Positions 2 to 64,000 of a stretch of DNA of 64,000 nt are shown piece by piece. Within the stretch, counting starts at the first letter, position 1, and each line of letters opens with the position of its first letter. This DNA comes from Zhaonella formicivorans (lineage in GTDB: Bacteria; Bacillota; DUOV01; Zhaonellaceae). The stretch is taken from NCBI RefSeq assembly GCF_004353525.1, contig NZ_CP085524.1:496001-560000 (forward strand). Reading direction: 5' to 3'. The notes beneath the pieces were generated by a model, which saw only the letters and a list, made by a program, of their open reading frames with translations, was not told the DNA's origin and ran no database searches. The position numbers and the translations under genes were made by a program.

Positions 2-1585
2 AAATATATAGTTACTAAGACATACAAAACCCCGCCAACTGAACATGCCTTTCTGGAGCCAGAAAGTGCTTTGGCTGTGCCGGATACTGACGGTGGCTTA
101 ACGGTTTACGTGGGTACACAAAGCGTATATCATGATAGGCATGGTATTGCGGATATTTTGGGGTTACCTGAAGAGAAAGTCAGGGTAATCAGCAAATATG
201 TCGGAGGCGGCTTTGGCGGAAAAGAAGACTTAAGCGTGCAGCATCATGCGGCACTGCTGGCTTGGTTCACCAAAAAACCTGTAAAATTAACCTTGTCCCG
301 TAAAGAAAGTTTGTTAGTTCATCCCAAGCGCCATGCCATGGAGATAGAATTAACGACCGGTTGTGATGCGGAAGGAAATCTCACCGTAATGATAGCTAAA
401 ATTGTTTCCGATACCGGGGCTTATGCTTCCCTTGGAGCGCCGGTACTGGAAAGGGCATGTACTCATGTGTCCGGCCCCTATCGCATACCAAATATAGAAT
501 TAACAGGGCTGGGGGTTTACACCAATAACCCGCCGGCGGGGGCGTTCAGAGGCTTCGGTGTGGCTCAATCCGCCTTTGCTTGCGAATCGAACATGGATCT
601 TCTGGCCGAACAAGTTGGTATCTCTGCTTGGGAAATCAGGTATAAAAATGCCTTAAGTCCCGGAGATACCATGGCCAACGGGCAGATTGCCGATGAAAGT
701 ACAGCCATTAAAGAAACACTTTTGGCGGTGCGCGATGTGTACAATAGCTATCCCTATGCCGGGATTGCCTGCGCACTGAAAAATGCAGGCTTGGGGGTTG
801 GGGTTCCTGACTTTGGTCGGGCCAAGCTAAAAATTTCAAATGGCAAAGTACTGGTTTTGACTGCCGCTCAGTGTATTGGACAGGGGCTAGGAACGGTAGT
901 GACCCAGATCGTTTGCGAAACTACCGGATTGCCCGAGGAACTGGTAGAAGTTGGCGCCCCTGATACCGCGCTGACGCCAGATTCCGGTCCGACCACAGCT
1001 TCCAGACAAACACTGTTTACAGGCGAAGCGGCCCGTCGGGCAGCTTTGAAACTGGCGGAAAGCCTGCGCTCATCATCCCTGGCTGAACTGGAAGGACAGG
1101 AGTTCTACGGGGAGTATGAAGGGGTAACGGATCCCATTGGTTCAACAAAAGCCAATCCTGTTAGCCATGTAGCCTACAGTTATGCCACCCATGTTGTAAT
1201 ATTAAACAACGAGGGCAAGGTGGAAAAAGTTGTCGCGGCCCACGATGTTGGCACTGCCATCAATCCCACTACCGTAGAGGGACAAATTGAAGGCGGCGTG
1301 GTGATGAGCCTCGGGTACGCACTAAAAGAGGACTTCCCGCTCAAGAACTCTGTGCCAACGGCTAAATTCGGTACCTTAGGTTTATTCAGGTCTACCGATG
1401 TACCGGAAATTGAAGTGATTTTAGTGAACAACAAGCCGTCAGAATTGGCTTACGGAGCTAAAGGGATCGGCGAAATATCCTCAATTCCTACCGCCCCGGC
1501 AGTAGCTTCTGCCTATTACAAATTTGACGGAGTGAGGCGCTACAGTTTGCCTTTAGAAAATACAGCATATAAACCCAAGAAATAA
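2..1585 (+). CDS. Molybdenum hydroxylase, molybdopterin-binding subunit (XdhD-like), 5'-truncated
   Basis: The reading frame is open from the first bases of the window, so the gene begins upstream; about 527 residues are present. The visible N-terminus carries the xanthine dehydrogenase family motif EHAFLEPE (residues ~14-21), followed by VGGGFGGKED (~67), GAFRGFGVAQ (~180) and, near the C-terminus, KGIGEISSIPTAPA with the active-site-type glutamate. This is the Mo-pterin subunit that hydroxylates purines or related heterocycles. Its place directly before ssnA, ygeY, ygeW and ygfK matches the E. coli xdhD neighbourhood, so I infer a role in anaerobic purine breakdown rather than CO or aldehyde oxidation. 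A first TTG at 71 lies inside the conserved fold and is not the start. Family call is firm; substrate is inference. Confidence 0.9.
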   Translation, partial: KYIVTKTYKTPPTEHAFLEPESALAVPDTDGGLTVYVGTQSVYHDRHGIADILGLPEEKVRVISKYVGGGFGGKEDLSVQHHAALLAWFTKKPVKLTLSRKESLLVHPKRHAMEIELTTGCDAEGNLTVMIAKIVSDTGAYASLGAPVLERACTHVSGPYRIPNIELTGLGVYTNNPPAGAFRGFGVAQSAFACESNMDLLAEQVGISAWEIRYKNALSPGDTMANGQIADESTAIKETLLAVRDVYNSYPYAGIACALKNAGLGVGVPDFGRAKLKISNGKVLVLTAAQCIGQGLGTVVTQIVCETTGLPEELVEVGAPDTALTPDSGPTTASRQTLFTGEAARRAALKLAESLRSSSLAELEGQEFYGEYEGVTDPIGSTKANPVSHVAYSYATHVVILNNEGKVEKVVAAHDVGTAINPTTVEGQIEGGVVMSLGYALKEDFPLKNSVPTAKFGTLGLFRSTDVPEIEVILVNNKPSELAYGAKGIGEISSIPTAPAVASAYYKFDGVRRYSLPLENTAYKPKK

Positions 1586-51122: not shown

Positions 51123-51995
51123 ATGGCTGATATGATTAAAAACAGGTATGAGTTTGTGCTTTTGTTTGAGGTGGAAAATGGCAACCCTAACGGTGACCCG
51201 GACGCCGGCAACATGCCCCGCATTGACGCCGAGACTGGCCTTGGTCTGGTAACTGATGTCTGTCTGAAACGTAAAATCAGGAATTATGTGGATATTGTTA
51301 AGGGCGGTATAGAGGGTTATGACATTTATGTACGAGAAGGGGCAGTTTTGAACTCCCAGCACAGAAAAGCCTACGCTGCTGTAGGAATTGAGCCTAACAC
51401 TAAGGATAAAAAAATGCCTAAAGATGAAGAAGAGGCTAAGAAAATTACCAAGTTTATGTGCCACCACTTCTTTGATATTAGGGCTTTTGGTGCAGTGATG
51501 ACTACGGAGGTGAACTGCGGCCAGGTCCGGGGTCCTGTTCAACTTAATTTTGCCAGAAGTATAGACCCTATTGTTCAGCAGGAAGTAACTATCACTAGAA
51601 TGGCTGTAACTTCAGAAAAAGATGCCGAAAAGAAAGACAGGGAAATGGGACGTAAATATATCGTGCCCTATGCACTTTACAGGTTGGAGGGCTATGTTTC
51701 ATCCTATCTAGCACAGAAAACTGGTTTTAACAATGATGATCTTGAACTGCTCTGGGAGGCATTGGTCAATATGTTTGACCATGATCATTCTGCCGCCAGG
51801 GGTAAAATGGCTACCCGCAAATTAGTTGTGTTTCGGCATGAGTCAGCTTTGGGTAATGCGCCCGCGTATAAACTATTCGATCTAGTACAGGTTACCAGAA
51901 AAGTTCCTGTTCGCCCAGCCCGTTCCTATGATGACTATGAAGTTAAGATTAATCGCTCTCAGCTGCCCACCGGGGTTGATCTAATAGAAAAATGA
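51123..51995 (+). CDS. cas7c: Cas7c (Csd2), Cascade backbone
   Basis: A 290-residue Csd2 protein forming the Cascade filament along the crRNA. Signature NPNGDPDAGNMPRID (~20-34), KRKIRNYVDIVKGG, DIRAFGAVMT (~121), GPVQLNFARSIDP and DHSAARGKMATRKLVVF. Follows cas8c by 3 bases and overlaps cas4 by 4. Confidence 0.95.
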   Translation: MADMIKNRYEFVLLFEVENGNPNGDPDAGNMPRIDAETGLGLVTDVCLKRKIRNYVDIVKGGIEGYDIYVREGAVLNSQHRKAYAAVGIEPNTKDKKMPKDEEEAKKITKFMCHHFFDIRAFGAVMTTEVNCGQVRGPVQLNFARSIDPIVQQEVTITRMAVTSEKDAEKKDREMGRKYIVPYALYRLEGYVSSYLAQKTGFNNDDLELLWEALVNMFDHDHSAARGKMATRKLVVFRHESALGNAPAYKLFDLVQVTRKVPVRPARSYDDYEVKINRSQLPTGVDLIEK

Positions 51996-52669
51996 TGAAT
52001 TATGATACTTATGATGACGACAGCCTGCTGATGTTATCAGGAATACAGCACTTTGCCTTTTGTGAGAGGCAGTGGGCTCTGATCCATATTGAAAATCTGT
52101 GGGAAGAAAACATAAGGACTGTTGAAGGTAAACAACTACACGATAGAGTGGACGACCCCTATTTTACGGAAACACGAAACAGTGTCAAGGTAGAGCGATC
52201 AGTCCCTTTGGTATCCAGATCCTTGGGTTTATACGGTGTGGCTGACGTAATTGAATACTATCAAGATTCGGGCTCAGATGATTCTCTTAAAATCATTATT
52301 ATTGAATATAAAAGAGGTAAACCAAAACCCGATGATAGAGATGAAGTACAATTGTGTGCACAGGCGATCTGCTTAGAGGAAATGCTAGGATTAAAAATAG
52401 ATTATGGGTATTTCTTTTATGGAGAGACAAGGCACCGCTACAGGGTTGATTTTAATGAGGTGTTGAGGGCAAGGGTTAAACAATTAGCAACCAGAATGCA
52501 TAACTTGTATGAAAGAGGGGTAACTCCGCCGGCAGTAAAAGATAAAAGATGCAAGGGTTGTTCTATGGTAGATTTGTGTATACCTGCTCTTGCTAAAAAA
52601 AGAAATGTAGCTGACAATTATCTGAAACGTCTGGTGAAAGAAGCGGAAGAAGAATCAGCGGGAGAATAG
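51992..52669 (+). CDS. cas4: Cas4 nuclease of the adaptation module
   Basis: A 225-residue RecB-like exonuclease with an Fe-S cluster. FAFCERQWALIHIE (C~24) starts the cluster and KRCKGCSMVDLC (~190) ends it; catalytic residues lie in YGVADVIEY and IIIEYKRGKPKPDDRDEVQLCAQA (~103-126, DEK motif). It trims prespacers and selects those with the right PAM before Cas1-Cas2 integration. ATG at 51995 is an alternative start. Confidence 0.94.
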   Translation: MMNYDTYDDDSLLMLSGIQHFAFCERQWALIHIENLWEENIRTVEGKQLHDRVDDPYFTETRNSVKVERSVPLVSRSLGLYGVADVIEYYQDSGSDDSLKIIIIEYKRGKPKPDDRDEVQLCAQAICLEEMLGLKIDYGYFFYGETRHRYRVDFNEVLRARVKQLATRMHNLYERGVTPPAVKDKRCKGCSMVDLCIPALAKKRNVADNYLKRLVKEAEEESAGE

Positions 52670-52672
52670 TGT

Positions 52673-53704
52673 ATGAGAAAATTGTTGAATGTACTTTATG
52701 TTACAACTCCAGACGCCTTTTTGGCTAAAGACGGAGAAAACTTGGTAGTCAGATTACAGGACAAGGAAGTATTTCGCACACCCATTCATTACTTGGAGGG
52801 AATAGTGACTTTTGGCTATATGGGTAGCAGCCCGGCTTTATTAGGTTTGTGTGCAGAAAGAGGCGTTTCTTTAACTTTTCTGAACGAGCATGGTAAATTC
52901 CTGGCTAGTGTTTCGGGGCCGGTAAAGGGTAATGTACTACTAAGGCGCAAACAATACAGAATGGCAGATTCAGCAGGTGATTGTACAAAACTTGCTGCTC
53001 GGTTTATTATGGGGAAGATTGCTAACAGCAGAACAGTTTTAAGGCGTTTTATTAGTGACCATGGAGATAAATGTAATTTAAGTAGAATTGAGCGGATAAG
53101 CAAAGGGTTGGCCAAAAACATTGTCAAGGTAAGTAATGCTACTTCCCTGGAAGAAATTAGGGGTATAGAAGGAGAAACGGCAAGAGATTACTTTTCGGTA
53201 TTTGATGATATGATCTTAAATCAGAAGGAAAGCTTTTTCATGAAAGAGCGAAGCCGCAGGCCACCAATGGATAAAGTAAATGCCTTACTTTCTTTTTTTT
53301 ATACCCTGCTAGTTAATGAAAATAGGTCTGCCCTTGAAGCCGTTGGACTTGATCCATATGTAGGCTTTTTACACCGTGATCGACCGGGAAGGCCAGGGTT
53401 GGCCTTAGACTTGATGGAAGAATTCCGCCCTTATTTGGCGGACAGGCTTGCTTTGAATCTTATTAACCGTCGGCAAATAACAGGGGAAGATTTTGTAAAG
53501 AAGGAATCAGGAGGGGTAATTTTAAAAGAAGAGGCCAGGAAAACAGTTTTGGAGGCTTGGCAAAAAAGAAAAAGAGATGAGTTAACACATCCTTATCTAA
53601 ACGAAAAAATACCCGTTGGTTTATTGCCATATGCCCAAGCTTTGCTATTGTCCCGATATTTAAGGGGTGACCTTGATGACTATCCGCCCTTTGTCTGGAA
53701 ATAA
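52673..53704 (+). CDS. cas1: Cas1 integrase, type I-C
   Basis: A 343-residue integrase: YVTTPDAFLAKDGENLVVR at the N-terminus, IRGIEGETARDYF (catalytic Glu), VGLDPYVGFLHRDRPGRPGLALDLMEEFRPYLADRLALNLIN (His and Asp) and CxL-like RYLRGDLDDYPPF at the end. Inserts spacers at the leader end of the array. Starts 4 bases after cas4. Confidence 0.95.
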   Translation: MRKLLNVLYVTTPDAFLAKDGENLVVRLQDKEVFRTPIHYLEGIVTFGYMGSSPALLGLCAERGVSLTFLNEHGKFLASVSGPVKGNVLLRRKQYRMADSAGDCTKLAARFIMGKIANSRTVLRRFISDHGDKCNLSRIERISKGLAKNIVKVSNATSLEEIRGIEGETARDYFSVFDDMILNQKESFFMKERSRRPPMDKVNALLSFFYTLLVNENRSALEAVGLDPYVGFLHRDRPGRPGLALDLMEEFRPYLADRLALNLINRRQITGEDFVKKESGGVILKEEARKTVLEAWQKRKRDELTHPYLNEKIPVGLLPYAQALLLSRYLRGDLDDYPPFVWK

Positions 53705-53718
53705 GGAGGATTGACTCA

Positions 53719-54009
53719 ATGATGGTACTAATTACTTATGATGTGAATACAACAACAGAAGCTGGAAAAAAGAGACTCAGACATGTTGCCAAGCAATGTA
53801 TCAATTATGGACAGAGGGTTCAAAATTCTGTATTTGAATGCTTGGTGGACCCTGTTCAATTTGCGCAATTAAGGCACAGGTTGGAGGAGATAATAGATAA
53901 AGAAAAAGATAGTTTAAGGTATTATTATCTAGGTAATAACTGGAAAAACAGGGTTGAACATGTTGGAACCAGAGCAACTTTTGATCCTGAAGGGACTATT
54001 ATAGTTTAG
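53719..54009 (+). CDS. cas2: Cas2, type I-C
   Basis: A 96-residue ferredoxin-fold protein (VLITYDVNTTTEAGKKRLRHVAKQC, QNSVFECLVDPVQF, SLRYYYLGNNW). Forms the Cas1-Cas2 integration complex. Starts at ATG with AAGGAGG upstream, last gene of the cas operon, with the array leader directly downstream. Confidence 0.95.
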   Translation: MMVLITYDVNTTTEAGKKRLRHVAKQCINYGQRVQNSVFECLVDPVQFAQLRHRLEEIIDKEKDSLRYYYLGNNWKNRVEHVGTRATFDPEGTIIV

Positions 54010-54187
54010 GTAATAGTTTGTGCGAACCTGATGTTCACACGTTTTTCCACGGGCATCGCACTAATGTAAATTGAACGATGTTTCTATTAAAACATATACG
54101 AGCTTATATCTTGGGGTTACGTTGATTAAGTGTTTCGCTATTATAGAATAGCTAACCCTTGAGATAAGTTGCTTACTCGCAGGCGCA
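54010..54187 (+). promoter_or_regulatory. CRISPR leader
   Basis: 178 AT-rich bases between cas2 and the first repeat. The GTGCGAACCTGATG start resembles leaders of other type I-C arrays. Transcription of the array should start here, and new spacers should be added next to 54188. Confidence 0.8.
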
Positions 54188-54852
54188 GTCGCACCCCACG
54201 CGGGTGCGTGGATTGAAACAATTTTCAGATAGACCCATAGGGGTTGTTGTTTGGTCGCACCCCACGCGGGTGCGTGGATTGAAACATACGAAGATTGGTA
54301 AGATTCTAAGTCTTGGGCTAGTCGCACCCCACGCGGGTGCGTGGATTGAAACAAGTGAGCGCACATAAACGTAATAGGGAATATTTCGTCGCACCCCACG
54401 CGGGTGCGTGGATTGAAACTAAGAAATGCATTGAACTTGACCTTGACAAAGCAGTCGCACCCCACGCGGGTGCGTGGATTGAAACTTTGGCCCCGGTATC
54501 TTAAACACCGCTGGCGGAGGTCGCACCCCACGCGGGTGCGTGGATTGAAACTGTTGGAGCATATTTCATTTTAATAAACCAAAATTGTCGCACCCCACGC
54601 GGGTGCGTGGATTGAAACATACCAGGTATCATCAATTGTTTTGCCAGTTAATTGTCGCACCCCACGCGGGTGCGTGGATTGAAACCGCACAACAAAGGTA
54701 AAAAAGGTGTTGGTGGTTGGGTCGCACCCCACGCGGGTGCGTGGATTGAAACAAGTAGCTTTCTTTGAATTGCTTTAGCCATGCATGTCGCACCCCACGC
54801 GGGTGCGTGGATTGAAACTTTTGGAAATGGCACATCAGCAAATAGCTCTTAA
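54188..54852 (+). CRISPR. Type I-C CRISPR array, leader-proximal half (10 repeats)
   Basis: Ten perfect 32-base repeats begin GTCGCACCCCACGCG and end GTGCGTGGATTGAAAC; starts are 54188, 54254, 54321, 54388, 54454, 54520, 54587, 54654, 54721 and 54787. Nine complete spacers are 34-35 bases. The repeat has the standard type I-C palindrome (CACCCCACGCGGGTGCGTG). After the tenth repeat 34 bases (54819-54852) run into the IS3 element. Confidence 0.98.
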
Positions 54853-54916
54853 GCCCCCTAACTAGGTTGGACATCGTTTCTTAAGAAATGATAAACTTAG
54901 TGTAGGGGGAATTTTT

Positions 54917-55213
54917 ATGACCAGGAAAAAATACAGCGATGAATTTAAACAACAAATTGTCAAAGAAGCAATTGAAACTGGCAATATGTCCTTAGTGGCC
55001 CGGCAGCATGAAATTGCCAAATCAATGGTTGCCAAATGGGTAAAACAATATAAAAACCCTCCTGTGCCTAAAAATAATAAGAAAAAAACTATTGATAATA
55101 GTTACTATAAAGAACTTGAAACCGAGAACGATAAACTTAAAAAGCTCCTCGGCGAAAAAGATTTGGAAATAGCCATACTTAAGGATTTGTTAAAAAAAAC
55201 AAACCTTCGATAG
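54917..55213 (+). CDS. IS3-family transposase OrfA
   Basis: A 98-residue DNA-binding helix-turn-helix protein (RKKYSDEFKQQIVKEAIETGN, VARQHEIAKSMVAKWVKQY) followed by a leucine-zipper-like coiled coil (ELETENDKLKKLLGEKDLEIAILKDLL). Overlaps orfB through a -1 frameshift on the A-run at 55192. Confidence 0.92.
   Translation: MTRKKYSDEFKQQIVKEAIETGNMSLVARQHEIAKSMVAKWVKQYKNPPVPKNNKKKTIDNSYYKELETENDKLKKLLGEKDLEIAILKDLLKKTNLR
55192..55198 (+). other. Programmed -1 frameshift site of the IS3 transposase
   Basis: A_AAA_AAA in the orfA frame, within a run of eight A residues. Slipping back one base joins orfA to the orfB frame, which is open from here to 56145. Such A-runs are the standard way IS3 elements make the OrfAB transposase. 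Confidence 0.8.
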
Positions 55214-56145
55214 AAGATAAAGTAAGTATCGCCAACAAATGGATTAGCCGTGGTTACAAAGCAGTTTTGGTTCTAAAAATAGTAGGCCTTAGCCGCTCTA
55301 CGTACTATTATCGTATTTCAAGAACTGGCCTTACCAAACGTGTGGGAGGAGGAAGACCCTGCCCAGGTTACTCGCTAGATAAAGCCAACAACCAGATCAG
55401 CGATGAACAAATTAAGGAATGGCTAACAGAGCTTATCGCGGATGAAGGTTATGCCTACGGGTATCTTAAATTAACCTACGCCCTAAAGCGAAATTTCAGG
55501 CTTATAATCAACAAGAAGAAAGTCTACAGGCTATGTAAAGAACTGGAAATTCTTAGACCACAAAGAAAATTTAAACCATCGTTTCCACGCAAAATAGCTA
55601 AAAACCGGGTTATTACAGGGTCTAACCAGCTTTGGGAGATGGATGTTAAATATGGTTATATTGCGGGTGAAAATCGATTTTTCTTCCTGTTGAGTCTTAT
55701 TGACGTAGCCGACAGAAATATAATTGACTATCACCTTGGTCTTAGTTGCACAGCAGAAGATGCAGTCAGAGTGGTTAAATCAGCATTATTAAAACGCCAG
55801 CTTTATCAAGGTGGAAATAAGCCTGTAATTCGCTCAGATAACGGGCCGCAATTTATCAGCCATGTATTTGAGAAAGTATGTGAGGAACTAGGGATAGAAC
55901 ATGAACGGATCCCTTTTAAAACTCCAAACAAAAATGCACATATAGAAGCTTTTCACCGACTTTTAGAAGATGAATGCTTTAGCCGCTATGAATTTGCGGC
56001 CTATGCTGAGGTATATGAAGTAGTAGCACAATATATCAAGCGTTACAATAAGCAAAGACTTCACTCAAGCATCGGGTATGTGCCACCTGAAGAATTCTAC
56101 AAATACCTTAGAGATGGCGAAAAAGTCTTGAAAATTACAATTTAA
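55201..56145 (+). CDS. IS3-family transposase OrfB (DDE integrase)
   Basis: The frame continues from the frameshift (KPSIEDKVSIANKWISRGYKAVLVL...). The HTH_21-like part (GYAYGYLKLTYALKR) is followed by the rve integrase core: LWEMDVKYGY (first Asp), VIRSDNGPQF (second Asp) and NAHIEAFHRLLEDE (Glu), a complete DDE set. A TTG at 55267 could start a separate OrfB. Intact, so the copy may still move. Confidence 0.92.
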   Translation, partial: KPSIEDKVSIANKWISRGYKAVLVLKIVGLSRSTYYYRISRTGLTKRVGGGRPCPGYSLDKANNQISDEQIKEWLTELIADEGYAYGYLKLTYALKRNFRLIINKKKVYRLCKELEILRPQRKFKPSFPRKIAKNRVITGSNQLWEMDVKYGYIAGENRFFFLLSLIDVADRNIIDYHLGLSCTAEDAVRVVKSALLKRQLYQGGNKPVIRSDNGPQFISHVFEKVCEELGIEHERIPFKTPNKNAHIEAFHRLLEDECFSRYEFAAYAEVYEVVAQYIKRYNKQRLHSSIGYVPPEEFYKYLRDGEKVLKITI

Positions 56146-56150
56146 AACTA

Positions 56151-56271
56151 TTTGTTTAACCTGTAAGAATAAAATCTTATGGTTTAAGAAAGGGTCAAGG
56201 TCGCAACGCGGCGAAGCGAAACCTTGACGCACTTCTTAAACCATAAGAAAATAATCAACAGGTTAAACAAA
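56151..56271. repeat. Nested stem-loop element E4 inside the IS3 right end
   Basis: Perfect 14-bp outer stem TTTGTTTAACCTGT (56151) with its complement (56258); perfect 16-bp middle stem (56175-56190 with 56233-56248); GTCAAGGT (56194) with ACCTTGAC (56221). The loop CGCAACGCGGCGAAGCGAA is GC-rich. Shares the GTCAAGG stem with element E2. It starts six bases after the orfB stop codon, in the same place relative to the transposase as E2 has in the IS110. Confidence 0.7.
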
Positions 56272-56345
56272 GATGCAATCGTGTGAAATCGTGAGAAATT
56301 AAGAAACTTTGTCCAAAATTCGGGGGTCAATCCGATAGTTTTGCT

Positions 56346-57313
56346 GTCGCACCCCACGCGGGTGCGTGGATTGAAACCTCACAAAACCAAGCTGGGCTAA
56401 TCTTTTCTCTATGTCGCACCCCACGCGGGTGCGTGGATTGAAACCAGAAAAAGAAATTGTGAATGATATACCAAGCAATGTCGCACCCCACGCGGGTGCG
56501 TGGATTGAAACTGGAAGTGTCCGGAATGTAAAGGGGAGTGGTGGCGTCGCACCCCACGCGGGTGCGTGGATTGAAACATTTTGTGTTTTACTGTGTCTAC
56601 AACGGTGTTGTGTCGCACCCCACGCGGGTGCGTGGATTGAAACTCCTGGGTGCTAGGACTTACATATACCCTGTATGCGTCGCACCCCACGCGGGTGCGT
56701 GGATTGAAACGTTGTACGTGTATAGCTCCTGGGGGACTTTGCTTTGTCGCACCCCACGCGGGTGCGTGGATTGAAACCAATCCTTTGGAGTAGCAGGTGT
56801 TTGATCCAATTGGTCGCACCCCACGCGGGTGCGTGGATTGAAACCTGAAAATAAGCTACCAACTGTTAACACCTTCAAGTCGCACCCCACGCGGGTGCGT
56901 GGATTGAAACTACTGCTACGGTAAAATATTTTTGCTCGACATGAAGTCGCACCCCACGCGGGTGCGTGGATTGAAACGTAGATACAAATGGGAATTACAT
57001 TGGTTATACTTGGGTCGCACCCCACGCGGGTGCGTGGATTGAAACCTCAAACGGGAAACTATTTTTGCCCTATCGCATGGTCGCACCCCACGCGGGTGCG
57101 TGGATTGAAACCTGTCGTATAAAAAGAAGGAAAAAAGGAAAAAATGGAGTCGCACCCCACGCGGGTGCGTGGATTGAAACTAGATGAACGTTTTTCCGAC
57201 GACTCTTCGACGGAGTCGCACCCCACGCGGGTGCGTGGATTGAAACGCAAATAGGGCTGGTTTTAGGACAAAAAGGACTTTGTTGCACCCCACGCGGGTG
57301 CGTGGATTGAAAC
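56346..57313 (+). CRISPR. Type I-C CRISPR array, leader-distal half (15 repeats)
   Basis: Fifteen 32-base repeats start at 56346, 56413, 56480, 56546, 56612, 56679, 56746, 56813, 56879, 56946, 57014, 57080, 57149, 57215 and 57282. Spacers are 34-37 bases, and one (57112-57148) is strongly purine-rich. The last repeat has GTTGC in place of GTCGC, the decay expected at the old end of an array. With the other half the array has 25 repeats. Confidence 0.98.
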
Positions 57314-57614
57314 AATCATCCCAAGGGCATTTTGTTTGCTGTTGTACCCTTTACTACCATCAAATGAGCTGGCAACTGCATCTGGCGACCATTTTTCGTG
57401 CAGCTTTTACCTCTTTCGTATAGTTTGACTAAAACTTTGACAAAACGTATTTTAGACCCCATTCAACTTCTCCTATACTTCGCGAATTTTAAATCAATTC
57501 ATCTTTTCCATTGCCAGAAAGCGAACTATATAGGAGAATAGAAAAAGTACCCTTAAATTTCTCAGGCAGCTTACGTATAATATTTATAACGCTTACTTGT
57601 GCTGGAGGGGTATG
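57314..57614. other. Intergenic region after the CRISPR array
   Basis: No gene seen. A TATAAT at ~57575 is a possible -10 of the CAP-domain gene; no further repeat copies are present after 57313. Confidence 0.5.
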
Positions 57615-58865
57615 ATGAAATCTTTGATAAAGTTTGTAGCAGGCCTAGTTACAGGGATTTTTTTTACCGTATTAATGATGAATTCCGGCTGGGCGGCGGG
57701 TTTTATACAGGAGATCAAGGTGCAGATTTTGCCCCTAAAATATTATTTTGATGGTATGCAAAAGGGTAATTCCGATGGGCAATATTTTAACGGCAATAAA
57801 AATGTACCTTTGGGATTTATTTACGATGGCACTACATATGTACCTTTAAGGTTTATTTCAGAAGCTTTGGGGAAAGCGGTTGGATGGGATGCAAAAACAA
57901 ATACTATTTGGGTTGGTAAGAAACCTGAGATTAGACCGAGCTTACCAGCTACATTGATGCAAGGTACAAAAAATGTTGAAGCATATATTGGAATTTCAAC
58001 CAAGGCTTTAGTTGAAAAATTAGGGGAGCCCCAGCGTAAAGACCCGGGGGAATATGGGTTTGACTGGTGGATCTATAACAAAGATTATAAAAACTACCTT
58101 CAAGTCGGAGTGAAGGAAGATAAAGTAGTTGCTTTATATACTAATTCCTATAACTGGACAACCAATGGAATTAGCTTGGGGAGCGCAAGAGCAGACATCG
58201 AGCAAAAACTGGATTTGGTAAATAAAATAAATTTTACTTATCAAAACGCTGATTTTACTATAAGTGAGAGTGCAGAACAATTTCAAGAAAGGCCTATCAA
58301 AATTGAGAGTAATTTAGTTACTGAGTTTTTCTTTGATATTCATGATAATAACAGACTTGCCGCTGTACGGGTCCTTGATTTATATACTTTTATGAGTATG
58401 GCTGCAGGCAATTATAACATGCAGTGGACCTATTTCGGCAAGCAACCCTCTTTCGGAAAACCAAAACTTTCGGATGCCCAATTAGACGCTGTTGAAAGGG
58501 CTTATGAGCAACAGATTTTTGATTTGGTCAATGCGGTGCGTGCTCAAAAAGGACTGTCGCTGTTAAAATGGGATGAGAAAGTTGCTGATGTCGCCCGCTC
58601 CCATAGTAGAGACATGTTGGAACACAATTTCTTTTCACACACTTCACCTAATTCAGGACATTTAAGTGATAGGATGCAAAAGGCAGGAATAAAATACAGG
58701 ATAGTTGCAGAAAACATTGCTTACAATTATGTTGATGCCATTGCTGCCCATGAAGGGTGGATGAACAGCTTAGGCCACAGGACCAATGTTTTAAACAAGG
58801 ATTTTAAACATTTAGGGGCTGGCGTAGAAGGAAAATTCTATACGCAAAATTTTGTGACTTATTAA
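57615..58865 (+). CDS. Secreted CAP-domain protein with copper-amine-oxidase-like stalk domain
   Basis: A 416-residue exported protein. An N-terminal signal/anchor (FVAGLVTGIFFTVLMMNSGWA) is followed by a copper amine oxidase N-like domain (VPLGFIYDGTTYVPLRFISEALGKAVGWD, ~60-90), a CAP-associated region (~115-260) and a C-terminal SCP/CAP domain (~285-416) with LVNAVRAQKGLSLLKWDEKVADVARSHSRDMLEHNFFSHTSP, ENIAYN, and GHRTNVLNKDFKHLGAGV. ATG 57615 is chosen over ATG 57612 for its spacing to GGAGGGG. Similar proteins are found on sporulating Firmicutes' cell surfaces; the substrate is unknown. Confidence 0.87.
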   Translation: MKSLIKFVAGLVTGIFFTVLMMNSGWAAGFIQEIKVQILPLKYYFDGMQKGNSDGQYFNGNKNVPLGFIYDGTTYVPLRFISEALGKAVGWDAKTNTIWVGKKPEIRPSLPATLMQGTKNVEAYIGISTKALVEKLGEPQRKDPGEYGFDWWIYNKDYKNYLQVGVKEDKVVALYTNSYNWTTNGISLGSARADIEQKLDLVNKINFTYQNADFTISESAEQFQERPIKIESNLVTEFFFDIHDNNRLAAVRVLDLYTFMSMAAGNYNMQWTYFGKQPSFGKPKLSDAQLDAVERAYEQQIFDLVNAVRAQKGLSLLKWDEKVADVARSHSRDMLEHNFFSHTSPNSGHLSDRMQKAGIKYRIVAENIAYNYVDAIAAHEGWMNSLGHRTNVLNKDFKHLGAGVEGKFYTQNFVTY

Positions 58866-58944: not shown

Positions 58945-59004
58945 ATCGAATGGGAAATATGTTATGAATTTGGCGTTGGATCAATTTAGGCAAGTGCATA
59001 ACTT

Positions 59005-59071
59005 CTTGTATATCCTCGGTAATATGGTCCGAGAGTTTCTACCGGGTAACCGTAAATAGTCCGGCTACAAG
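59005..59071 (+). promoter_or_regulatory. Purine riboswitch aptamer, guanine/xanthine class by its key cytosine
   Basis: The aptamer reads TATCCTCGGTAATATGGTCC, GAGAGTTTCTACCGGG, ACCGTAAATAGTCCGG and CTACAAG. P1 is CTTGTA (59005) with TACAAG (59066), extended by CAAGT (58991) with ACTTG (59076). J2/3 is GTTTCTACC; the two loop motifs TAATATGG and ACCGTAAA are those that form the loop-loop contact. The specificity base is C (in GGCTAC), which in this class selects guanine-type ligands rather than adenine. The base before it is G where A is usual. It lies upstream of xdhABC, so purines probably regulate their own oxidation. Confidence 0.88.
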
Positions 59072-59226
59072 AATAACTTGCCCTAAGCTGTTTAGCTGTT
59101 GGGTAGAGGATTTTTGAAGTCGCTCTTACGGCTTACCCACTTTTCTTAATAAGCCGGAGAAAAGGTATTATGTTATTTACTCCGTAATTAGCAATACAAG
59201 GGTCATCCCAGTACTCTTCGAAAACG

Positions 59227-59270
59227 AACCCCAAAATTTTCTTTAGGATAATTAGGGGGTTTTTATTTTT
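59227..59270 (+). terminator. Intrinsic terminator, probable riboswitch expression platform
   Basis: AACCCC (59227-59232) pairs with GGGGGTT (59255-59261) around an AT-rich loop, followed by TTTATTTTT. It lies between the aptamer and xdhA (ATG 59358). Another hairpin just after the aptamer (TGGGTA at 59100 with TTACCCA near 59138) overlaps CCCTAAGC-type pairing at 59081 and could be the switch itself. Confidence 0.6.
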
Positions 59271-59357
59271 ATTTTCAACCCTGACTAAAAAAGGGGGTTG
59301 GTTTCAAGAGATTTCATATGTAAATTTGCTCAGAAATCAAGAAATGGAGGGGAGAAA

Positions 59358-61649
59358 ATGACCTATTCAGTAGTCGGAAAAAGCATCAAAAGAGTTGATG
59401 CAGTTGCAAAAGTAACAGGTAGAGCAAAGTATGCTGATGATTTTTTTGAACGAGATACGCTGGTGGGGAAAATCCTGCGGAGCCCCTATGCCCATGCCGT
59501 GATTAAAAATATTGATGTAAGTAAAGCAAAGGCTTTACCAGGTGTAGAGGCGGTTTTAACTTATAAAGATGTTCCCCAAACCAAATTTGCCACAGCAGGG
59601 CACCCATATTCGCTTGACCCAAAGCATAGGGATAAGGAAGACCGTTCTATTCTGACTAATAAGGCGCGTTTTGTGGGCGATGCCATTGCTGCAGTAGTAG
59701 CAACTGATGAGTTAATTGCTGAAGAAGCATTGAAACTCATTGAGGTAGAGTATGAAGTCCTGGAACCACTTCTCACTCCTGAAGATGCGATGAAGGAGGG
59801 TGCACCCCAAATTCATGAAGGATGTGAGCGCAACATCCTTGCTTCTAATGGAAATGAATATGGAGATCTGGAGGCGGCTTTTCAAGAAGCGGACCATATT
59901 TTTGAAGGTGAGTATGAAACCAGCATTGTTCAACACTGCCATTTGGAAAACCAAGTAGCACAAGCTTACGTGGATACGGATGGGCGTATAGTAATTATTA
60001 CTTCTACCCAGATCCCTCATATTTGTAGAAGAGTGGTGGGACAAGCGCTAGGTATTCCTTGGGGCAAGGTGCGCATAATCAAGCCTTATGTGGGCGGCGG
60101 GTTTGGAAACAAACAAGAAGTGACAATCGAGCCATTAACTGCTGCCATGACTTTGGCGGTCGGTGGCCGCCCGGTGAAGTTAGAACTCTCCAGGGAAGAG
60201 GTAATGATTGACACCAGGACTCGCCACGCTTTTAAATTCAAAATCAAAACGGGATTGACAAAAGACGGCAAGCTGCTTGGTATTCATATTAAAACCATAT
60301 CCAATACCGGGGCCTATGCCTCCCATGGACATTCTATTGCCATGAGCGCAAGCAGTAAATTCCGGCCCTTGTATCCGGTAAAAGGTTTCAAATACGAGCC
60401 GTTAACTGTCTATACCAATCTGCCTGCAGCCGGAGCAATGCGCGGTTACGGTGCCCCTCAAATATTCTATGCATTTGAATGTCATCTGGACGACGTTGCC
60501 AGAAAGCTGAATATGGATCCTATTGAACTTCGCAAGAAAAACTTTGTTGAAGTCGGCTTTGTAGAACCCGTAAGCAAAAATAAGGTACTAAGCTGTGGGA
60601 TCCGGGAGTGCGTAGAAAAAGGCAAAGAGTTGATTAAATGGGAAGAGAAAAAAGCCCGGTATGTCAACCAAACAGGTACTAAACGTCGTGGTTTAGGTAT
60701 GGCGTGCTTCAGCTATGCTTCGGGAACCCATCCGGTCAGTTTGGAAATCGCCGGGGCGAGGATTGTTTTGAACCAGGATGGCTCTGTGCAGCTCCAAATC
60801 GGCGCCACGGAAATAGGTCAGGGCAGCGACACTGTCTTTGCTCAAATGGTGGCCGAAGTATTAGGAATTCCAATGGATATGGTCCATGTTATTTCCACGC
60901 AGGATACAGATATTACGCCATTTGATACGGGCGCATACGCCTCAAGACAGAGTTACGTTACAGGTATGGCTGTCAAAAAAGCGGCTTTAGAAGTCAAGGA
61001 AAAAATCCTCGATTTTGTCTGGGGTATGACAGATATACCTGCCCATATGCTGGATATTAGAGATGCCAATATAATTTACAAGCATTCCGGGGAAATTGTA
61101 ATGCCTTTGGAGAAAGCCGCAATGCAAACTTATTATGATACTGTTTTTGCGAAGCCGATCACCAGCGATACTACAAATAACGCCAGGATCAATGCTTATT
61201 CTTTTGGTGTAACGTTTGCAGAGGTAGAAGTAGATATAAAAACAGGCAAAATTCAGGTCCTGGAAATCTTTAATGTTCATGATTCGGGACAAATTTTAAA
61301 CCACCAATTGGCGGAAGGCCAGGTCCATGGCGGTGTAAGTATGGGGATTGGGTACGCGCTTTCCGAGCAGATGCTTTTTGATGAAAAAACAGGAAAGCCT
61401 CTCAATAATAATTTACTGGATTACAAATTGCCCACAATCATGGACACCCCTGATATCGGTGTGGCATTTGTTGAGACCTTTGATCCAACAAGTTCTTTCG
61501 GTCATAAATCTCTGGGTGAACCACCGGCTATTTCACCTGCACCTGCTATCCGTAACGCTGTTTTGGATGCCACCGGGGTCGAGTTTAACCGGCTGCCCAT
61601 GAACCCGCAGCGGGTGTTCGAGAAGTTTAAAGAAGTAGGATTAATCTAG
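59358..61649 (+). CDS. xdhA: Xanthine dehydrogenase, molybdopterin-binding subunit
   Basis: A 763-residue Mo-hydroxylase large subunit oxidising hypoxanthine or xanthine. VDAVAKVTGRAKYADDFF at the N-terminus, YVGGGFGNKQE (~247), GAMRGYGAPQIFYAFE (~357), EIGQGSDT (~491) and GHKSLGEPPAISPAPAIRNA near the C-terminus with the catalytic glutamate. ATG 59358 has GGAGGGGAG upstream; the longer frame from 59298 lacks this. First gene of an xdhABC operon under a purine riboswitch. Related large subunits act on aldehydes or nicotinate, but the riboswitch and the purine cluster favour xanthine. Confidence 0.92.
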   Translation: MTYSVVGKSIKRVDAVAKVTGRAKYADDFFERDTLVGKILRSPYAHAVIKNIDVSKAKALPGVEAVLTYKDVPQTKFATAGHPYSLDPKHRDKEDRSILTNKARFVGDAIAAVVATDELIAEEALKLIEVEYEVLEPLLTPEDAMKEGAPQIHEGCERNILASNGNEYGDLEAAFQEADHIFEGEYETSIVQHCHLENQVAQAYVDTDGRIVIITSTQIPHICRRVVGQALGIPWGKVRIIKPYVGGGFGNKQEVTIEPLTAAMTLAVGGRPVKLELSREEVMIDTRTRHAFKFKIKTGLTKDGKLLGIHIKTISNTGAYASHGHSIAMSASSKFRPLYPVKGFKYEPLTVYTNLPAAGAMRGYGAPQIFYAFECHLDDVARKLNMDPIELRKKNFVEVGFVEPVSKNKVLSCGIRECVEKGKELIKWEEKKARYVNQTGTKRRGLGMACFSYASGTHPVSLEIAGARIVLNQDGSVQLQIGATEIGQGSDTVFAQMVAEVLGIPMDMVHVISTQDTDITPFDTGAYASRQSYVTGMAVKKAALEVKEKILDFVWGMTDIPAHMLDIRDANIIYKHSGEIVMPLEKAAMQTYYDTVFAKPITSDTTNNARINAYSFGVTFAEVEVDIKTGKIQVLEIFNVHDSGQILNHQLAEGQVHGGVSMGIGYALSEQMLFDEKTGKPLNNNLLDYKLPTIMDTPDIGVAFVETFDPTSSFGHKSLGEPPAISPAPAIRNAVLDATGVEFNRLPMNPQRVFEKFKEVGLI

Positions 61650-61667: not shown

Positions 61668-62552
61668 ATGTATAATATTCAAGGGTACTATGACCCAGAA
61701 ACAGTAGATGAGGCAGTAGCGCTTCTCGCCGATAATCCTAGCTTGAAAATCATCGCAGGCGGGACAGATGTTTTAATTAAAATGCACGGCGGACAACTGG
61801 AAAAAGCAGAGCTTTTAAGCATTAGAAAGCTAAAGGAGCTGGAAGATATAAAAAAACTAGAGGACGGTACTATCATTATCGGTCCTTTAGCCACTTTCAG
61901 CCAAATCTATAATGACCCGGTGATCAAGAAAAACATTCCGGTTTTGGGGGAAGCAGCTATTTCCATGGGAGGACCCCAAATCAGGAACATCGCAACTATC
62001 GGCGGGAACATCTGCAATGGCGCAACCTCTGCCGACAGTGCATCCACCTTGTTTGCCCTGAATGCCAAGTTAAAGCTAAGAACTAGTCAAGGGGAGCGGG
62101 TAATTCCCATTCAGGAGTTTTACCTGGGACCCGGCAAGGTTGATTTAAAACCTGGGGAGGTACTGACTGAGATAATCATTACGCCCGAAAACTATCAGGG
62201 CTTCGGTGGGCACTATATTAAATTCGCCATGCGCAATGCCATGGATATTGCTACTTTAGGCGTTGCTGTGCTGTGTAAAATCACAGAAAGTAAGCTGATC
62301 GAAGATGTGCGCATTGGCCTTGGGGTAGCGGCTCCTACGCCCATTAGATGCCAGGAAGCGGAGAGCTTCGCTCGGGGTAAAGCAATTTCTGAGGAAATTA
62401 TTGCGGTAATCGGTAAACTAGCAGTAAAATCGACCAAGGCCAGAACCTCATGGCGGGCTTCAAAAGAATACCGGGAGCACTTGGTGGAAGAGCTTACCCA
62501 AAGGGCTTTGAAGGCGGCCGTTCGTAATGCAGGAGGTGGGGAAGTTGCATAA
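61668..62552 (+). CDS. xdhB: Xanthine dehydrogenase, FAD-binding subunit
   Basis: A 294-residue FAD_binding_5/CO_deh_flav_C protein: YYDPETVDEAVALLADN, IIAGGTDVLIKMHGG (~33), GGPQIRNIATIGGNICNGATSADSASTLFALNAK (~103-136) and IGLGVAAPTPIRCQEAE (~222). It carries electrons from the iron-sulfur subunit to the acceptor. Starts 18 bases after xdhA and overlaps xdhC by 8 bases. Confidence 0.94.
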   Translation: MYNIQGYYDPETVDEAVALLADNPSLKIIAGGTDVLIKMHGGQLEKAELLSIRKLKELEDIKKLEDGTIIIGPLATFSQIYNDPVIKKNIPVLGEAAISMGGPQIRNIATIGGNICNGATSADSASTLFALNAKLKLRTSQGERVIPIQEFYLGPGKVDLKPGEVLTEIIITPENYQGFGGHYIKFAMRNAMDIATLGVAVLCKITESKLIEDVRIGLGVAAPTPIRCQEAESFARGKAISEEIIAVIGKLAVKSTKARTSWRASKEYREHLVEELTQRALKAAVRNAGGGEVA

Positions 62553-63006
62553 AAAAATATCCTTTACTGTAAATGGCAAAGCGGTAAGCTTAGAGGTGGA
62601 CATTCGTCAATCCCTTTTAGAAGTCTTGAGAAATATCCTAGGATACACCGGGGTCAAAAAAGGATGTGGTGTGGGGGAATGCGGGGCCTGCACCGTGCTG
62701 GTTGACGGTACACCTATTGACTCCTGCATTTATCTGGCAGTCTGGGCTGACGGGAAGAATATCACAACCATTGAGGGTTTAGCCAAAAACGGTGAGCTGA
62801 CCAAAGTGCAGAAAGCGTTCATTGAAGAAGGGGCCATCCAGTGTGGCTTTTGTACACCGGGCCTGGTGCTGACTACCACTGCCCTGGTCGAGAGCGGGAA
62901 AAAATATACCAGAGAGGAACTCAAGAGAGAGTTATCAGGTCATTTCTGCCGCTGCACAGGCTATCAAAATATCCTTAAGGCGGCTGAAAGGGCACTGGAA
63001 GAATAG
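62545..63006 (+). CDS. xdhC: Xanthine dehydrogenase, [2Fe-2S] subunit
   Basis: A 153-residue dicluster iron-sulfur protein. Plant-type cluster CGVGECGACTVLVDG (~42-56) and the second cluster CGFCTPGLVLTT ... CRCTGYQNI (~100-140) are complete. The start TTG 62545 follows AGGAGGT; an ATG at 62527 overlaps this site, so the TTG is preferred. Named by the E. coli XdhABC order. Confidence 0.93.
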   Translation: MHKKISFTVNGKAVSLEVDIRQSLLEVLRNILGYTGVKKGCGVGECGACTVLVDGTPIDSCIYLAVWADGKNITTIEGLAKNGELTKVQKAFIEEGAIQCGFCTPGLVLTTTALVESGKKYTREELKRELSGHFCRCTGYQNILKAAERALEE

Positions 63007-63374: not shown

Positions 63375-64000
63375 GTAAGCGATAAATAATAGGGTGCATG
63401 AAAAAGATTAGCCCCGGCACAGCAGCCTTTGCCCGTACCGGAGCCCAGATAATCTATATATTTAACAATTTTTGTTATGACAATAATCAGGGAGATTCTC
63501 GGACCAAGGCATTAAGTCCTCAAGAAGCGAGGGACAATTCTTGAAGTCAAGTGTTGGCATTGTGCTGAAGATATGTACCAGATATTTAAAAATATTGAGT
63601 TTGTTAGCTTTGGCTGTCTCGACAATGCTGTAAACAATGGCACTGGCTCTGGCTCCTTTGGTTGTGTCGGCAAACAGCCAGGATTTCCTGCCGACTACAA
63701 ACGGCCTGATTGCGTTCTCAGCCCGGTTGTTGGACAATTCGATGCGCCCGTCTTCAAGAAATACGCCTAGTGAAGGTTTTTGGTTTAAGGAATAAGTTAT
63801 GGCCTCGGCAAGTTTTGAGCCTTGGAGAGGGTTCACGGTTTCAAGCCACGACAAGTAAGCCTCAAAGATAGGCCTGGACTGTTCCTGACGCTTAAGTTTC
63901 CGTTCTTCCGGAGTAAGTTCTGTTAAATTCTTTTCTATAGCAAAAAGTTGGTTGCAATATTCAAACCCAATGGCAGCAGTAGAACCCCGGATATCTCCGC
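63375..64000 (-). mobile_element. IS66-family element, truncated by the window end
   Basis: GTAAGCG at 63375 is the terminal motif of IS66-family inverted repeats, and the transposase frame reads inward from the window end towards it. The far end lies outside the window. Confidence 0.75.
63462..64000 (-). CDS. IS66-family transposase (TnpC), C-terminal part
   Basis: The frame is open through the window edge, so the gene starts outside; about 178 residues are visible. NNRAENAIRPFVVGRKSWLF carries the catalytic glutamate; SIVETAKANKLNIFKYL is the IS66 C-terminal signature, and the visible upstream part reads AAIGFEYCNQLFAIEKNL. The stop codon lies 87 bases inside the GTAAGCG end. Confidence 0.88.
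   Translation of the reverse strand, partial: GDIRGSTAAIGFEYCNQLFAIEKNLTELTPEERKLKRQEQSRPIFEAYLSWLETVNPLQGSKLAEAITYSLNQKPSLGVFLEDGRIELSNNRAENAIRPFVVGRKSWLFADTTKGARASAIVYSIVETAKANKLNIFKYLVHIFSTMPTLDFKNCPSLLEDLMPWSENLPDYCHNKNC

Follow-up and report, generated by a model that had tools for sequence, protein, structure and literature searches.

The xanthine dehydrogenase operon xdhABC in the 64 kb stretch of DNA analyzed here (the window) is preceded by a purine riboswitch of the guanine type, which is probably wired as a transcriptional ON switch for the operon. The riboswitch lies between xdhABC and the upstream gene, which ends at 58865. On sequence grounds it is a guanine-type purine riboswitch. 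Both the class and its mechanism are known, and the gene context is less usual. The features are summarized in Table 1. All three products of the operon score above the NCBIfam cut-offs for XdhA, XdhB and XdhC, and the preliminary description of this DNA was therefore correct that the aptamer precedes xdhABC. A promoter scan gave nothing on the plus strand.

RF00167 (Purine) is the sole Rfam match at or above gathering score in the whole window using cmscan. Bases are numbered as in the xpt aptamer. All three stems are kept, as are both kissing loops and U22, U47, U51 and C74, and the combination of C74 with the three uridines makes this an aptamer of the guanine type. The roles of these four as ligand-contacting bases are described in PMC3764141 and PMC9295807. 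Like guanine-I (RF00167), the RNA has all the conserved loops and junctions without insertions; it differs from guanine-I in having G73 for A73, in its predicted ON control and in preceding a catabolic operon. Two pairs are non-standard, C59014.A59034 at the base of P2 and A59048.A59058 in P3. The conserved loops and specificity cytosine that had been reported for this RNA are thus borne out by the score and alignment (C59065), as are two departures from consensus: G59064 lies before the specificity cytosine where the consensus has A, and J1/2 is UAU, with U instead of A at its last position. The consensus A73 is not treated as defining the guanine type, and position 73 is absent from the universally conserved nucleotides given in PMC3764141. 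Xanthine-I (NMT1) gave no match in the window at gathering thresholds, nor among the low-score matches in 59080-59365.

Table 1. Features of the xdhABC leader and operon. Positions are those of the window unless another locus is named.
Feature	Position	Strand	Basis or remark
RF00167 match	58986-59087	+	76.1 bits vs gathering 37, E 9.1e-12, full length 1-102
Purine riboswitch aptamer core (P1, P2, P3, L2/L3 kissing loops)	59003..59073	+	RF00167; own covariance model R1, 85.1 bits
P1	59003-59010/59066-59073	+	cmscan alignment
J1/2, UAU (U24 replaces A24; ends in U, not A)	59011-59013	+	cmscan alignment
P2	59014-59020/59028-59034	+	cmscan alignment
J2/3, GUUUCUAC	59035-59042	+	cmscan alignment
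P3	59043-59049/59057-59063	+	cmscan alignment
L3	59050-59056	+	cmscan alignment
J3/1, G59064-C59065 (consensus A-C)	59064-59065	+	cmscan alignment
G73 in xpt numbering, where A is usual	59064	+	cmscan alignment
Specificity cytosine C74	59065	+	cmscan alignment
T1, predicted hairpin competing with aptamer (P3 5' strand, L3, P3 3' strand, J3/1, P1 3' strand)	59044..59138	+	MFE, shuffles
Inner P4-like stem of T1	about 59079-59108	+	folding
U-tract of T1, TTTTCTT (interrupted)	59141..59147	+	sequence, folding
AAGGGTCATCCCAG, downstream of T1	59198-59211	+	sequence
AAGGGT, upstream part of second conserved element	59198..59203	+	all three genome leaders and G002:C8
T2, terminator-like hairpin, then T-rich sequence	59227..59261	+	alone -12.9 kcal/mol; conserved
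Second attenuator element (AAGGGTNANNNCA ... CCCC hairpin, T-tract)	59198-59261; L001 1721-1786; L002 1698-1760; L165 (G002:C8) 1122-1155		
xdhA, xanthine dehydrogenase molybdenum-binding subunit; ATG, GGAGGGG ahead	59358..61649	+	NF007426 1292.1 bits vs cut-off 916; NF043082 1256 vs 780
xdhB, FAD-binding subunit	61668..62552	+	NF007427 446.9 bits vs cut-off 287
xdhC, iron-sulphur subunit	62527..63006	+	NF043084 254.6 bits vs cut-off 217

The predicted ON control derives from the hairpin T1. The MFE structure of the leader contains T1 and has an energy of -47.4 kcal/mol, compared with -33.8 kcal/mol when P1 and P3 are forced. In T1, 24 nucleotides of the aptamer pair with downstream RNA, which was matched by 5 of 300 dinucleotide shuffles; none of 300 matched the energy when the downstream part was shuffled. 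These foldings leave out tertiary contacts and the ligand. As judged by folding, an intrinsic terminator can form only if P1 and P3 are given up. A simple scan of the leader for terminators was negative, which is expected given that the scan permits only loops of 3-8. With little ligand the downstream RNA would invade the aptamer by strand exchange, first at P1, next at J3/1 and finally through P3 into L3; T1 would form, and transcription would halt at 59141-59147. Bound ligand would stabilize the three-way junction and keep P1 and P3, T1 would then come too late, and transcription would proceed towards the operon. Guanine is the likely ligand, with hypoxanthine a possible one, and a surplus of the purine base would thereby switch on its own oxidation. 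We infer the ligand, the direction of control and the kinetics from sequence and predicted fold, and consider the ON direction well supported by sequence.

The arrangement can be compared with that of the Bacillus subtilis pbuE adenine switch, an ON switch with an intrinsic terminator. The two have the same scaffold, the same strand exchange from P1 through J3/1 and P3 into L3, and a P4 stem. In pbuE, P1 and P3 are lost when the terminator forms, and its formation requires an A-A mismatch near L3, which eases invasion (PMC7707468). An A.A mismatch in P3 near L3 is also present in the window (59048/59058). Since T1 has the pbuE layout, in which the terminator displaces P1 and P3 unless the junction is held by ligand, ligand should turn xdhABC on. 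Unlike pbuE, which has U74, the window RNA has the guanine-type C74; it precedes xdhABC rather than a purine exporter, which is the product of pbuE, and a second conserved terminator follows T1.

We folded 15 leaders, choosing the U-tracts by eye: five belong to the window's family, and ten come from the remaining 11 XdhA-linked leaders (L218 was left out). In all 15 the MFE structure has a hairpin with its 5' arm in the aptamer and its 3' arm ending at the U-tract. Eight of them were compared with shuffles. Five were clear; L240 and L002 beat the shuffles on energy but less so on pairs (30/300 and 41/300 respectively), and the hairpin of L236 was no better than shuffled sequence (127/300 on pairs, 117/300 on energy). 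A predicted hairpin that destroys the aptamer and runs into a U-tract, found in the window and in 15/15 folded leaders, supports the earlier suggestion of inverted, ON logic before a degradative operon. The terminator had been placed at 59227. There is indeed a hairpin at that position (T2), but the competitor of the aptamer is that at 59044-59138, which had been missed.

An automatic rule for T1-type hairpins was run on 26 hand-picked loci. It returned the T1 shape before all seven members of the amidohydrolase group of Bacilli, and no such shape in six G73 permease or purL leaders (L139, L117, L118, L080, L055 and L077). It failed to pick out the L219 leader (run as L195), and marked three leaders of purE (L103, L083 and L129) where OFF control would be expected. 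G73 occurs with both outcomes of the rule, which is imperfect and on its own is no proof of ON wiring. The Bacilli G73 aptamers with a likely ON hairpin before an amidohydrolase are L036, L037, L038, L042, L050, L086 and L133. The L036 amidohydrolase scores as a 5'-deoxyadenosine deaminase and also resembles deaminases of 8-oxoguanine and guanine; L050 and L133 carry XDH-like genes.

Homologues of XdhA (E up to 1e-150) were found in 58 of 398 phylum genomes. A purine riboswitch was detected with covariance model R1 at 12 of the 30 XdhA loci fetched; the model found none at the other 18, where the XdhA gene need not head its operon. The 12 leaders precede orthologous xdh operons, and eight have G73 while four have A73. 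The base varies even between near-identical leaders of the same gene, CACCTCGACTA (L215) compared with CACCTCGGCTA (L224 and L225). G73 is therefore poor evidence for a new ligand, because the base changes while the gene stays. In the open-licence papers searched, only PMC9295807 and one review dealt with purine riboswitches together with xanthine dehydrogenase, and a guanine-type switch before xdh may already be in print.

G73 is a minority state, a recurrent natural variant and not the rarity it had been taken for. Among 132 matches in 298 phylum genomes to a pattern for the J2/3-P3-J3/1 part, position 73 is A in 104, G in 27 and C in 1 (A and G counted by eye), and 17 of the 27 G73 sequences were judged to have an extra U before GGC. 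The G73 form occurs in at least 119 stretches of GTDB genomes, including Paenibacillus, Clostridium, Listeria, Sporolactobacillus and Moorella. From their flanks eight of the 119 look like chance (three Pectobacterium, L057, L101, L116, L137 and L141); L044, L090 and L094 have no ORF, and that of L074 is doubtful. The J1/2 sequence UAU is ordinary: 21 of the 55 distinct aptamers in the phylum set have U24.

The genes following the 119 listed G73 stretches were grouped by similarity, with names taken from cluster representatives. The largest groups are NCS2 purine permeases (49) and FAD-dependent proteins of unknown function (24). These are followed by amidohydrolases (7), purL (7), purE (6), xpt (4), nucleosidase-like genes (4), pbuX (2), purC (2), guaB (1) and guaA (1), and the remainder are chance, doubtful or unclassified. 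This is largely a guanine-sensing gene set, and similar genes lie under C. difficile guanine riboswitches (PMC11477304). The 24 loci with an uncharacterized FAD-dependent protein next are from Paenibacillus and Brevibacillus (e.g. L092 1454-3013 and L076 614-2191). The L092 protein contains PF21688, and both of the leaders examined in this group have a hairpin that competes with the aptamer and leads into a U-tract.

Nucleotide 73 pairs with the downstream arm in nine of the 15 folded leaders: four have A-U (all of them from the window's family), two have G-C, and three, the window among them, have G.U. It makes a local pair in L223, and is unpaired in five. In T1 of the window G73 would pair with U59120, where relatives have A-U or G-C. 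All the pairings are standard and come from few independent lineages, so that it is suggestive only that position 73 is common to pocket and terminator. T1 differs by just 0.6 kcal/mol when G73 is replaced by A73, so no large effect of G73 on the terminator is expected. A pairing of CCGGCU (59061-59066) with AGCCGG (59153-59158) was considered as compensation for G73 and rejected, as it is absent from the MFE structure and lies beyond T1. We regard G73 as probably a tolerated purine rather than a change of specificity. Given that it recurs before ordinary guanine genes and would be shared with the terminator, G73 alone should not be used to predict new ligands.

The altered junction had been read as a sign of another ligand. 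In that event G73, together with U24, would shift recognition to xanthine, urate or 8-oxoguanine, and the RNA would sense a substrate or product of xanthine dehydrogenase. The purine-oxidation context is in keeping with this, variants of the scaffold for xanthine, 2'-deoxyguanosine and 8-oxoguanine exist (PMC9295807), and U24 and G73 tend to occur together, G73 being present in 9 of 21 aptamers with U24 compared with 3 of 30 with A24 (Fisher p 0.016, which ignores descent). Xanthine-II (Hamal Dhakal 2022, PMC9295807) goes with xanthine dehydrogenase, dioxygenase and allantoinase genes and is, like the window RNA, predicted to be ON. But its signature is U51G with insertions in J2-3 and J3-1, and the window aptamer has U51 and plain J2/3 and J3/1 lengths, which rules out that signature. 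Moreover, G73 is common before NCS2 permeases, purL, purE, purC, xpt, guaB and guaA. It alternates with A73 before orthologous xdh operons while U22, U47, U51 and C74 are unchanged, and the L001 riboswitch has A73 before another xdh-like operon. A shift of ligand is thus unlikely.

A different possibility is that G73 marks a structural subtype. Unpaired extra nucleotides beside P3 occur in 18 of 21 aptamers with G73, compared with 8 of 41 with A73 (Fisher p 9e-7, ignoring descent), among 64 distinct phylum aptamers not selected on G73; the remaining two have C or T. The widening is similar to the insertions that PMC9295807 describes for guanine-II and xanthine-II. Because of this strong association with a widened junction in relatives G73 may mark such a subtype. 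The junctions of guanine-II-like RNAs may reach beyond Paenibacillus, given the link of G73 to extra nucleotides adjacent to P3 and, more weakly, to U24. If the window RNA were of this kind, a G73-C53 pair would extend P3, G46-C53 would be lost and guanine would be bound more selectively, with the same ON mechanism. In an isolated secondary-structure model the probability of C53-G73 is 0.68, compared with 0.02 for G46-C53, but that model leaves out the tertiary contacts by which G46-C53 forms. According to Hamal Dhakal 2022 (PMC9295807), guanine-II, predicted to be ON in Paenibacillus, keeps U51 and C74, as does the window RNA, and has an extra nucleotide in J2-3; the crossing G46-C53/U22-A52 pairs are absent from guanine-II structures (PMC13374515). 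Phylum sequences with the insertions described for guanine-II often carry G73. Guanine-II is set apart by a one-nucleotide J2-3 insertion together with a J3-1 insertion while U51 is kept. C54-G72 and G55-C71 can pair in the window, and with C54-G72 closed neither J2/3 nor J3/1 carries an insertion. A guanine-II-like fold is a reasonable alternative, and guanine-II also binds guanine, but we consider it rather improbable for this RNA.

Least likely of all is an ordinary OFF switch in which ligand favors termination at T2. Guanine-I riboswitches are usually OFF (PMC9295807), and the T2 hairpin is stable and has T-rich sequence after it. Yet T2 overlaps neither the aptamer nor T1, no antiterminator that would include P1 can be seen, the aptamer's competitor, T1, has its own U-tract, and the genes downstream are catabolic. 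A guanine-type ON switch operating through T1 is the reading we prefer.

The genome contains three purine riboswitches, all before purine-catabolic or uptake genes. One (L001/L167) precedes an xdh-like operon that also encodes an NCS2 permease and an amidohydrolase of the deaminase type, and another (L002/L168) a BMP-family ABC transporter; both have A73 and a T1-type hairpin. The T2 motif was found in four places only in a family-wide search of three genomes, i.e. these three purine leaders and, in looser form, one leader of the sister-genus genome G002, and a reversed control pattern had no match in the same search. A stricter pattern applied to 398 phylum genomes found the three leaders of the host genome only. 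A search of 59080-59365 for a known Rfam element (E up to 5) gave five sub-threshold matches, which were taken as chance, and folding the four T2 regions revealed nothing in common beyond the hairpin and a possible short GGGU/ACCC pairing.

T2 is not explained by the aptamer, since it does not overlap T1. As it lies between T1 and xdhA it must also be passed, and control may therefore not rest with the aptamer alone. T2 may act as a second checkpoint that responds to its own signal, or it may be a cassette copied along with the leader. The stretches between T1 and T2 are unalike between leaders, as judged by eye, which favors selection on T2, although four copies are too few to decide. We propose tentatively, as a possibility that is less than even, that all three leaders have a two-stage gate, comprising a purine ON riboswitch acting through T1 and a second attenuator, T2, with a signal of its own.

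The surroundings of the operon were inspected by eye. Three ORFs in 51992-57315 resemble cas4, cas1 and cas2, and CRISPR-like repeats after them, read as spurious ORFs, flank an IS3-type transposase at 54917-56145. The ORF directly upstream of the riboswitch (57597-58865) resembles a secreted CAP/SCP-domain protein with an N-terminal part like copper amine oxidase. The end of an IS66-type transposase lies on the reverse strand at 63462-63998, 456 bases past xdhC.

The G73 case separates a tempting change adjacent to the pocket from a real change of specificity. An aptamer of the guanine type, and not xanthine-II, is apparently wired ON for xanthine dehydrogenase, and the leaders of the XdhA homologues suggest that this arrangement is widespread in the host phylum, which seems to include Moorella. 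If the two-stage gate is real, expression of the genes would require purine and the second signal together.
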